Shown here: positions 11,040 through 41,912 of the stretch, one piece after another
Numbering within the stretch: position 1 is the stretch's first letter
Layout: every line of letters starts with the position of its first letter
NCBI RefSeq assembly: GCF_013364355.1
Contig: NZ_CP054931.1
Span: forward strand, 1,116,001 to 1,180,000
Reading direction: 5' to 3'
DNA: 64,000 bases
Source: Stenotrophomonas sp. NA06056
Lineage (GTDB): Bacteria; Pseudomonadota; Gammaproteobacteria; Xanthomonadales; Xanthomonadaceae
Made by a program: the position numbers and the translations under genes
Notes under the pieces: generated by a model
Databases searched by the model: none
What the model was told of the DNA's origin: nothing
What the model saw: the letters and a program-made list of their open reading frames with translations, nothing else

Positions 11040-11143
11040 GGCCGCGCGGGTGGGCTGCGCAGGGGGCGCCGTGAACCCATCCCTGGGGGCTTGGCCGCGG
11101 CATCCATGCCGCGGACACCCCTGCGCAGCCCACCCGCGCGGCC
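11040..11143. repeat. Modular palindromic element, copy A
   Basis: Perfect 26-bp arms (11040-11065 and 11118-11143) flank a core carrying an inner hairpin (CCGCGGCAT at 11095-11103, ATGCCGCGG at 11106-11114). The core reads CCGTGAACCCATCCCTGGGG then CTTGGCCGCGG. The same core with different arms recurs at 23083, 23331, 37704 and 41811. AACGGC and a CGTGGTGGG stretch precede the left arm. CTTGGACGGTTTCCG follows the right arm. It fills the 292-base gap between aidB and the lipoprotein gene. Confidence 0.85.
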
Positions 11144-11206
11144 TTGGACGGTTTCCGTGCGCGTCCAGCACGGAATCAACAGAAGAAGCGAAAAGCAGAA
11201 AGCAGA

Positions 11207-11233
11207 AAAGCCGCGGCAATGCCGCGGCTTTTC
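11207..11233 (-). terminator. Terminator of the first alanine-rich lipoprotein gene
   Basis: AAAAGCCGCGGC / GCCGCGGCTTTT with a 3-base loop forms a 12-bp stem flanked by A and T tracts. Placed 44 bases downstream of the minus-strand lipoprotein stop. It also faces plus-strand read-through from aidB. Confidence 0.8.
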
Positions 11234-11235
11234 CT

Positions 11236-11265
11236 GTAGAGCCGAGCGCCGGGCCATGCCCGGCG
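11236..11265 (+). repeat. SMAG repeat
   Basis: GTAG followed by AGCCGAGCGCCGGGCCATGC and CCGGC: the GTAG head plus a short hairpin built on GCCGGGC/GCCCGGC. This is the form described for Stenotrophomonas SMAG elements, dispersed intergenic repeats that act at the RNA level. Confidence 0.8.
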
Positions 11266-11277
11266 AACGCGAAGGCC

Positions 11278-11688
11278 TTAGTGCTTGGCTTCTTCCTTGG
11301 CGGCAGTGGCCTTGGCGTCGTCGGCCACATCGCGGGCCTTGTCGGCAACCTTCTGCGCGGCATCGGCCGTGGCGTCGCTGGCGTGGGCGGCAGCATCGGT
11401 CGCTGCGACCTTGGCTTTGTCGGCGGCATTGGCGGTAGCGGCTGCGGCGCTGTCCAGCGCCTGCTGGGTATCGGCAGCAGCCTGCTCGGAGGCGGCGGCG
11501 GTCTTGTCGGCGGCGTCGCGGGTGGCTTCGGCGGCCTTGTCGACGGCATCGCGTGCGGCGGCGCCGGCGCTGTCGGCGGCCTGCGCGGCATCCTGCTTGG
11601 CCTGCTCGGCTTCCGGGCCCTTGCAGGCGGCCAGTGCCAGCAGCAGGGAGGCGGCCAGCAGGGTGGTGGTCAGCGGGCGAATCTTCAT
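11278..11688 (-). CDS. Alanine-rich outer-membrane lipoprotein (paralogue 1)
   Basis: 136 residues. A lipoprotein signal peptide ends in the lipobox LAAC with the lipidated Cys at residue 22. The mature part is almost entirely A/D/K/T/E in heptad-like repeats (AADKT, DAADKA), predicted as one long amphipathic helix or coiled coil. It resembles Lpp-like or stress-associated alanine-rich lipoproteins but belongs to no family I can name. A second gene of the same design lies 147 bases upstream on the same strand, with its own terminator. Start chosen at MKIRP because it creates the signal peptide. Confidence 0.75.
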   Translation of the reverse strand: MKIRPLTTTLLAASLLLALAACKGPEAEQAKQDAAQAADSAGAAARDAVDKAAEATRDAADKTAAASEQAAADTQQALDSAAAATANAADKAKVAATDAAAHASDATADAAQKVADKARDVADDAKATAAKEEAKH

Positions 11689-11780
11689 GGCGGTCTCCGG
11701 TACTGCAATGGATGGGGACGCCAGCCTATTCATGCCGTTGTGAAGACGTGGTGGTGACCCGCGCAGAACCGCGCGCAAAG

Positions 11781-11807
11781 AAAAAGCCGCTGGCGAACCA
11801 GCGGCTT
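11781..11807 (-). terminator. Terminator of the second alanine-rich lipoprotein gene
   Basis: On the minus strand, GCCGCTGG, TTCG loop, CCAGCGGC, then five T. It follows the lipoprotein stop by about 30 bases and separates the two paralogues into independent transcripts. Confidence 0.85.
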
Positions 11808-41082: not shown

Positions 41083-41135
41083 GGTCACGGGGTGCAGCCA
41101 GGGGGAACCGCAGATTATCGCATGCCCGCAACGAG

Positions 41136-41159
41136 GTGACCCGGCCGAGGCCGGGTCAC
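41136..41159. terminator. Hairpin downstream of the DUF2147 gene
   Basis: Near-perfect 11-bp stem GTGACCCGGCC/GGCCGGGTCAC with a 2-base loop, 27 bases past the minus-strand DUF2147 stop and upstream of metG. No T tract follows, so it is only a candidate terminator or leader structure of metG. Confidence 0.4.
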
Positions 41160-41185
41160 GGGGATAAGGCGGGGGCCGGGGGCGC

Positions 41186-41629
41186 TTATTCGCGCTGCCA
41201 GGTCTGCGCGCGGCAGATGAAGGCGATGCAGCCGGACACGTCCAGCTTGGTGCCGCCGGGCTGCAGTTCCATCTTCGACCTGTAGGTCTTGCCGTTGGCC
41301 GGGTCGAGGATGGTGCCACCGGACCACTTGTTGGCGCCGTCGGCCTTCAGGTTCCAGAGGATGGTCATGCCCTTTACCGGCTTGTTCTTGTTGGCGCCTT
41401 CGCAACCGTCGCAGACCGGATTGGGGCCCTTGTCCGAGTGCAGGATCTCGACCACCTTGCCGGTCAGCGTGCCGTTGGCGGCCTGGCTGATCTCGACGAT
41501 CGACTTCACCTTGCCGGTCTTGTCGTCGATGGTCTTCCAGCGGCCGGCGGCACTGTCGGCAGCCTGCGCGGAGAGCGCGGCCAGGCACAGCGGCAGCGCC
41601 AGCAGCAGGGTCTTGAAGGTCTTGCGCAT
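41186..41629 (-). CDS. DUF2147 exported protein
   Basis: 147 residues with signal peptide MRKTFKTLLLALPLCLAALSAQA. The mature domain begins AAGRWKTIDDKTGKVKSIVEI and contains KVVEILHSDKGPNPVCDGCEGANKNKPVKG and GGTILDPANGKTYRSKMEL, the lipocalin-like DUF2147 pattern. Four Cys could make two disulfides. Periplasmic; function unknown. It lies upstream of metG in the same direction (103 bases apart), but a hairpin intervenes. Confidence 0.88.
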   Translation of the reverse strand: MRKTFKTLLLALPLCLAALSAQAADSAAGRWKTIDDKTGKVKSIVEISQAANGTLTGKVVEILHSDKGPNPVCDGCEGANKNKPVKGMTILWNLKADGANKWSGGTILDPANGKTYRSKMELQPGGTKLDVSGCIAFICRAQTWQRE

Positions 41630-41740
41630 GGTCCCCTCCCAGGGTTCATTCCGGCACGATGCCGGTACGGGTCGACTGTATACCCATTCGGCGGGGTATG
41701 GGGAAGGGGGGGGCTCGGCCGGGCTGCGCCCGGCACCCGC

Positions 41741-41794
41741 AACGGCAACGGCAACGGCAACAGCAACAGCAACAGCAACAGCAACAGCAACAGC
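41741..41794 (+). repeat. Hexanucleotide run (AACRGC)9
   Basis: Three AACGGC then six AACAGC copies with no interruption. Preceded by a GGGCTGCGCCC hairpin and ACCCGC, followed 16 bases later by palindromic element E. Shorter versions flank the other elements of that family, so it is a module of the element, and slippage could vary its length. Confidence 0.9.
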
Positions 41795-41810
41795 GGGCGT
41801 TCCTTGGGAT

Positions 41811-41912
41811 GGCGGGGTGGGTCCGGTTGCGGGGGACGCCGTAAACCCGTCCATGGGGGCTTGGCCGCGGCATCCATGCCGCGGACACCCCCGCAACCGG
41901 ACCCACCCCGCC
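41811..41912. repeat. Modular palindromic element, copy E
   Basis: Perfect 25-bp arms (41811-41835 and 41888-41912). Inner hairpin CCGCGGCAT/ATGCCGCGG (41865-41884), same as in copy A. Core reads ACGCCGTAAACCCGTCCATG then GGGGCTTGG. Arms equal those of copy C in their outer 19 bases. Right flank CTTCGACAGGTCTCCG. With the hexamer run and tandem repeat it fills the 479-base gene-free gap between the DUF2147 and gloA2 genes. Confidence 0.88.

Follow-up and report, generated by a model that had tools for sequence, protein, structure and literature searches.

A dispersed Y-shaped repeat of Stenotrophomonas and other Gammaproteobacteria carries two hairpin tips predicted to bind CsrA/RsmA

We analyzed a 64,000-nucleotide stretch of DNA from Stenotrophomonas sp. 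NA06056 (contig NZ_CP054931.1, positions 1,116,001 to 1,180,000; hereafter, the window), in which five copies of a palindromic element of about 102 bp are found. The element is real, structured and far more widespread than had been reported: the count of five given in an initial annotation holds for the window, whereas the 4.52-Mb genome contains at least 150 copies. We somewhat favor the reading, drawn from sequence and predicted fold, that the element is a dispersed RNA repeat that would bind CsrA/RsmA through two hairpin tips.

On inspection of the sequence, all five palindromic elements were found in the places where they had been annotated. A scan of the window with a covariance model (R1; 55 training sequences, copies A and B among them) returned exactly five matches, each with an E value of 3.4e-22 or less. 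A mechanical stem search gave arms of 22 to 27 bp and a loop of 52 in four of the five copies and of 56 in copy C. The copies, with the two tips of copy E, are as follows.

11040 to 11143, minus as the RNA-like strand: copy A, a Y-shaped element with 26-bp arms and a loop of 52 (R1 match 11041-11142, minus, E = 7.5e-23).
23080 to 23181, minus: copy B, the left member of a pair with copy C (R1, E = 7.5e-25).
23331 to 23432, plus: copy C, the right member of the pair, in the orientation opposite to B (R1, E = 3.4e-23).
37692 to 37797, plus: copy D, in a gene-poor stretch and with other flanks (coordinates from the stem search; R1 match 37694-37795, plus, E = 3.4e-22).
41811 to 41912, minus: copy E (R1, E = 1.3e-25).
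41849 to 41854, minus: tip of hairpin 1 of copy E, GTCCAT on the plus strand and AUGGAC on the RNA-like strand (from the sequence and the ANGGAN position pattern).
41872 to 41877, minus: tip of hairpin 2 of copy E, ATCCAT on the plus strand and AUGGAU on the RNA-like strand (from the sequence and the ANGGAN position pattern).

The anatomy of the element was read from 74 unique sequences among 83 copies of the same genome, compared gap-free over 102 nt. The fold is a three-way junction, or Y, consisting of an outer stem of about 25 bp with free sequence (a near-perfect helix, ranging from 22 to 30 bp) and two hairpins. A single short inner hairpin had been described; in its place there are two, and the stems of both covary. 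Hairpin 1 has six pairs and a 5-nt bulge (GYRAR on the strand first read), and a triplet in its stem is CCC/GGG, TAC/GTA or TCC/GGA. Hairpin 2 has five constant pairs and two positions that are often unpaired. One copy had a C-G pair in a hairpin stem swapped to G-C.

Among copies, the tips vary at two places only. On the RNA-like strand, hairpin 1 ends in C-[A N G G A N]-G, where A, G, G and A are invariant in all 74 copies, position 2 is U, G, A or C, position 6 is variable, and the closing C-G is present in 73. Hairpin 2 ends in C-AUGGAU-G, with U at position 2 in 73 of the 74. The same tips were found beyond this genome. At synteny-chosen Marinobacter loci, each of the 41 model matches has C-[ANGGAN]-G at both tips. 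At orthologous Stenotrophomonas loci, 103 of 108 hairpins had ANGGAN and the other five were long-insert forms; in 89 unique elements of 12 other genomes, the count was 165 of 178 hairpins (160 closed by C-G), with AGGA still present in 10 of the remaining 13. Degenerate tips occur among the weak members of a set of best matches, A2 (L323, L316:1410). Before counting, we removed duplicates and any match of less than 94-95 nt. Since the exact core pattern used in the searches described below fixes the tips, we claim tip conservation only from the alignment of the genome's own copies and from sets chosen by synteny or by model; R1 also carries the tip letters, and tipless copies could be missed in the model-based sets.

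With two tips per element, the GGA motifs are 23 nt apart in the 55-sequence alignment (A1), and the short hairpins expose ANGGA. A 23-nt spacing suits one CsrA dimer, and the C-G-closed hexaloop presumably matches the RsmE-hcnA structure. ANGGA in a hairpin tip is described as the preferred CsrA target (PMC7366521). The 5' flank of the element carried a GGA-tipped hairpin in 16 of 82 copies, as opposed to TCC in 1 of 82.

Pairing was evaluated in A1, which was composed of 39 of 82 rows from genera other than Stenotrophomonas and Xanthomonas and 16 of 51 Stenotrophomonas rows passing one filter. This filter required a loop of 52, an arm of at least 10 and at least 14 of 25 positions paired; Xanthomonas rows, mostly with a loop of 53, were excluded. 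Identity was 39% in the arms and 73% in the cores. Two-sided changes occurred in 35 of 38 pairs, and 92.9% of cells were paired, a percentage somewhat inflated because the rows had been prefiltered for pairing. Covariation was 0.865, as opposed to 0.209 in shuffled alignments and at most 0.171 with slid partners. Arm identity between copies ranged from 31% to 91% across 11 other genomes. The left arms of four copies read in each of two Marinobacter genomes were unrelated (22-50% identity), and their pairing was near perfect.

Pairing was also kept at orthologous sites while sequences changed. Of 29 B/C-site orthologues, 24 retained a model match, as did 20 of 29 E-site orthologues, with changes in the arms and in the type of core. 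In the gap between pgk and fba of Marinobacter (Pfam PGK, 1.7e-95; F_bP_aldolase, 3.1e-93), the element was present in 24 of 30 loci read among 59 genomes with a match, 22 of them scored by the model and 2 long-insert forms recognized by eye; its orientation by the model was sense in 21 and antisense in 1. Pairing maintained through sequence change in many genera supports selection on the stem, one of the two explanations offered in the initial annotation.

The mismatches were read on the strand with the ANGGAN tips, which is opposite to the strand first read. The ratio of G·U to A·C was 33:5 in the genome's own copies (17:4 when counted once per column and type), 32:4 in other Stenotrophomonas, 36:5 at orthologous Stenotrophomonas loci, 69:4 in Xanthomonas, 60:14 in other genera, 34:4 and 24:1 in two further sets, and 131:22 over 12 other genomes, with the same direction in all 11 that had any such mismatch; these sets partly overlap, and related copies are not independent, above all in Xanthomonas. 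The window copies belong to both the own and the Stenotrophomonas sets, the set of other genera and A3 share some Marinobacter elements, and several elements of A2 are copies in A4 (L318 = L334, L308 = L384).

Because both strands contribute alike to a cruciform, its G·T and A·C mismatches should occur at equal frequency. The one-sided excess of G·U argues instead for selection on a single strand, and a double-stranded DNA cruciform, with its equal constraint on both strands, was dropped. The bias was unchanged by the direction of the flanking genes (for example, other genera gave 12:4 and 8:3, and Xanthomonas 20:1 and 4:0), so transcription-coupled mutation was rejected as its cause, small as the numbers in these classes are. 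The structure under selection thus appears to be a single strand, either RNA or folded single-stranded DNA, and is probably RNA. More generally, wobble asymmetry can show which strand of a palindrome is the RNA.

The wobble counts also bear on the second of the two early explanations, copying between the arms. If the arms were paired only through template switching, where replication errors copy one arm onto the other and the structure is under no selection, both arms should change together in blocks at a single site between species, as they do. Such copying predicts neither the G·U excess on one strand nor the covarying inner hairpins around near-invariant tips, and we regard it as very improbable.

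We evaluated how common the element is. The 150 R1 matches listed in the genome were all better than E = 6e-18; this count is a lower bound, as 150 of 3,150 first-look candidates were scored. BLAST searches with copies C and E reached at least dozens of genomic places, with 40 candidates of each scored. Close pairs account for 84 of the 150 copies listed: there are 42, with starts 229 to 593 bp apart, where about 3.6 are expected at random positions. All 42 are arranged alike, their RNA-like strands facing outward. SMAG-like GTAG repeats and other small palindromes occupy the middle of most of 12 pairs (among 26 read).

Further copies were present in many genomes, related ones included. By the initial annotation's own criteria, a lack of further copies or a breakdown of arm pairing in orthologues would have spoken against a structured family, and neither was seen. 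Among the matches listed, the exact core pattern occurred in Xanthomonas, Marinobacter, Shewanella, Alteromonas, Rheinheimera, Idiomarina, Moritella, Alcanivorax and others. Sixteen genomes picked for having a core match contained 2 to 104 exact matches each, the highest number in a Xanthomonas genome, and none of the 16 contained the reversed pattern. In a sample of 299 genomes from the phylum, R1 matched 25, which represent 17 of 153 genera and all belong to the window's own class. Copy E had no match in the phage and plasmid collections, and one viral contig matched the core pattern. A relative of the copy at L318 was found in 5 of 5,426 Escherichia coli genomes (hits H1-H5), all from wastewater sources, with four of the five places on plasmids. 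One locus (L355; G340:C1:94200-95860) holds six elements in a tandem array, one per ~227 bp. Genome G270 has nine csrA-like matches, and the arms of its element copies are 91% alike, a likeness that probably reflects recent spread.

The element was lacking at nine of the orthologous loci (L068, L079, L087, L091; L103, L104, L108, L116, L119), some of which still hold part of the side modules described below. Among the 14 loci without a model match, four others are cut by contig ends (L092, L096, L101, L107), and L115 carries inserts. Structured inserts of ~80-90 nt were seen at one point inside hairpin tips, where they replace three bases, in Stenotrophomonas-type loci (L090, L105, L113, L115, L120) and in Marinobacter (L275, L301); by eye, the hairpin 1 inserts of the two groups look homologous. 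The insert family in L115 and L120 has two further AGGA tips on the same strand, and the other family has GGA only in some folds. At two B/C-site orthologues (L067, L076), the pair looks merged into a single element with outer modules on both sides. Downstream of fba, two species (L279, L288) have no model match and carry a short hairpin, TTTGGGGCGG..CCGCCCCAAA, resembling the outer arms of the neighbors' element, which suggests that the inner part was lost or that the element inserted into such a hairpin.

Abundance and patchiness would also be expected of a mobile DNA palindrome of the REP/BIME or ERIC type, whose folded single-stranded DNA serves movement and has no function as cellular RNA. 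Such a repeat could reach 150 copies or more, lie in random orientation to genes (see below), be without a model match at 5 of 29 and 9 of 29 orthologous loci (four of these cut by contig ends and one with inserts), accompany SMAG-like repeats and travel on plasmids, as the relatives on four E. coli plasmids do; single-stranded DNA of one strand could likewise favor G-T over A-C. It accounts less well for tips that fit the CsrA motif, with few exceptions, in the genera read, for the unrelated arms within each of the two Marinobacter genomes and for pairing retained at one orthologous site across species, and the strand bias disfavors a double-stranded cruciform. We consider a purely mobile DNA element rather unlikely, although it is the strongest of the alternatives.

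Gene context was examined with calls from a home-made gene finder. Many copies lie within ~50-200 bp of predicted gene ends, often between convergent genes. The initial annotation had placed the hairpin end of most copies next to a gene's 3' end. This holds for copy A, which is preceded by aidB (AidB_N, 2.3e-54), and for copy C, where the 3' end of a mechanosensitive-channel-like gene is 90 bp away; copy E, on the other hand, has its hairpin end toward the 5' end of a DUF2147 gene. A two-way transcription terminator or 3'-end stabilizer between convergent genes would suit such positions and the very stable folds. However, a T-run of 5 within 20 nt of either end was present in 0 of 60 copies read, for which reason an intrinsic terminator was dropped, and 42 of 61 placed copies in other genera lie between codirectional or divergent genes (14 further copies are at locus edges). 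A terminator would also need neither conserved tips nor a strand bias. We therefore hold this explanation to be improbable.

Copies B, C and E are surrounded by side modules. These had been described as having a fixed order in all five copies, which is true of B, C and E and does not extend to A and D, where the flanks are different. The modules are as follows, without assigned strand.

23018 to 23034: left module of B, a GCAGGGCTGCGCCCTGC hairpin, from the sequence.
23179 to 23330: middle of the B/C pair, 152 bp, with SMAG-like GTAG repeats, from the sequence.
23491 to 23507: outer module of C, a GCAGGGCGCAGCCCTGC hairpin, from the sequence.
41718 to 41734: left module of E, a GCCGGGC-TGC-GCCCGGC hairpin, from the sequence.
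41741 to 41794: left module of E, a run of AACRGC hexamers, from the sequence.
41913 to 41938: right module of E, a CGACAG..TCCGC..CTGT imperfect hairpin with GGA near its tip on the minus strand, from the sequence.

The GTAG repeats inside the B/C pair are what we take to be SMAG. The name follows PMC3733652. The window contains a second inverted pair of long hairpins, at 1504-1596 and 1640-1735, with arms of 26 and 28 bp and loops of 41 and 40. These share an inner motif (TTTACTTCGC / GCGAAGTAAA), differ in their inner hairpins and have no R1 match and no Rfam match above cutoff. A C4 antisense RNA (RF01695, 64.6 bits) lies at 37091-37177 on the minus strand, ~500 bp from copy D in the gene-poor stretch.

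How might an RsmA-binding repeat work? The element strand would be transcribed mostly by read-through, and the two tips of one Y-shaped RNA could hold one CsrA/RsmA dimer. With 150 or more repeats per genome, the element could bind or titrate RsmA, and transcripts bearing a copy may be marked by it. The outer stem, whose sequence is free and whose length is close to two helical turns, would set the hairpins apart and could allow RNase III to excise the Y. Given the outward RNA-like strands of Stenotrophomonas-type pairs, read-through from either side would pass one copy in the binding orientation.

Several observations weigh against CsrA/RsmA binding or against an RNA role. Orientation relative to codirectional flanking genes was random (16:16 in other genera, 15:12 in Stenotrophomonas and 3:8 in Xanthomonas); the sense-strand bias expected of an mRNA-borne element in such contexts was thus not found. 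No promoter signal was detected 5' of the element or inside pairs, and a model in which the element has its own promoter was dropped. In some copies, a tip is replaced by an insert of ~80-90 nt. GGA and TCC were alike in the 3' flank (58 of 83 and 56 of 83), which therefore adds nothing to the CsrA case. A genome of the type of the Rfam family Ysr224 (G369) had a weak wobble bias of 5:3, and in five of five copies compared there (L334-L338), Ysr224 is on the strand opposite to the ANGGAN tips. The presence of csrA in 33 of 33 element-bearing genomes tested (PF02599 cutoff) is in favor of CsrA binding but is a weak test, since most Gammaproteobacteria have csrA. Finally, a GGA tip is no proof of CsrA/RsmA binding: several GGA-bearing leaders of X. 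citri were reported not to be bound by RsmA (PMC3937308), and the Xanthomonas RNA RsmU was reported to bind RsmA even with its four GGA motifs changed (PMC7694677).

A 2014 report notes that no homologues of rsmB had been identified in Xanthomonas and considers an undiscovered mechanism likely (PMC3937308). With at least 150 copies in the Stenotrophomonas-type genome and 104 exact core matches in one genome of Xanthomonas, the majority bearing two CsrA-type tips, this question of a missing rsmB becomes testable; RsmU, in contrast to the repeat, is one locus. As a tentative possibility, Gammaproteobacteria may carry a dispersed, multiplying RNA repeat, built as a free-sequence stem of ~25 bp around a near-invariant two-site CsrA clamp, that acts as a genome-wide CsrA/RsmA sponge or address tag and in xanthomonads takes over part of the missing RsmB/CsrB function; Ysr224 would then be this element annotated on the wrong strand.

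We compared the element with known systems. Integron attC sites were dropped, as no attC motif was seen by eye. REP/BIME and SMAG repeats resemble the element in their high copy number, intergenic location and inverted pairs, and SMAG-like GTAG repeats lie inside element pairs. REPs are described as 20-40 bp long with a GTAG or CGTC tag (PMC3733652); the element, by contrast, is ~102 bp long, folds as a Y and has no GTAG or CGTC tag at the ends of the copies inspected. The small RNAs CsrB, RsmZ and RsmY and Xanthomonas RsmU, a 3'-UTR-derived RsmA binder (PMC7694677), share with it GGA-bearing hairpin tips and CsrA/RsmA binding, which is predicted for the element. These are small RNAs from one or few loci, whereas the element is a repeat (RsmU was compared by description), and no window copy matched CsrB, RsmY or RsmZ in Rfam. 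In the literature searched, mostly outside subscription papers, no repeat of such a kind was described as CsrA-type.

At Rfam cutoffs, only a tRNA and the C4 RNA were found across the window, and no copy of the element was matched; low-threshold matches to microRNA families were taken as chance matches of long hairpins. The earlier statement that the family has no name thus stands for the window copies and fails for their relatives, which score as two Rfam families. The first, TwoAYGGAY (RF01731, clan CL00106), has two hairpins with tips of the A-N-GGA-N type inside a poorly conserved outer stem, and CsrA binding has been predicted for it (PMC4333381). Among 37 loci scanned, four relatives (L320, L321, L322, L390) scored as TwoAYGGAY on the same strand with 51.7-60 bits (cutoff, 43). 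Copies B, C and E were unmatched even at E values up to 5 or 10, as were A and D at the cutoff, the only threshold at which these two were scanned. Compared with the A-Y-GGA-Y tips of that family, both tips of the element are ANGGAN, and position 2 of hairpin 1 may be any base (U, G, A or C). Window-type elements also differ in the conserved 5-nt bulge of hairpin 1, in the near-perfect 22-30 bp helix of the outer stem and in copy numbers that reach 150 per genome.

The second family, Ysr224 (RF02770), described from Yersinia, contains the same core. All five copies scanned in G369 scored as Ysr224 with 70.6-100.4 bits (cutoff, 70), whereas copies B, C and E reached only 26.3-29.8 bits and no window copy reached the cutoff. 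Unlike the element, the Ysr224 model omits the full outer stem. Ysr224 is reported to be multicopy with differing expression (PMC12112432) and to be among the most prevalent small RNA families (PMC9029176). As the window copies fall under both cutoffs, we class them as neither Ysr224 nor TwoAYGGAY but as a separate branch of this kind with high copy number. Judged by model scores and shared core, the family as a whole takes in the Ysr224 elements and, at its edge, TwoAYGGAY. The element also connects these two Rfam families, whose roles are unknown or little known.

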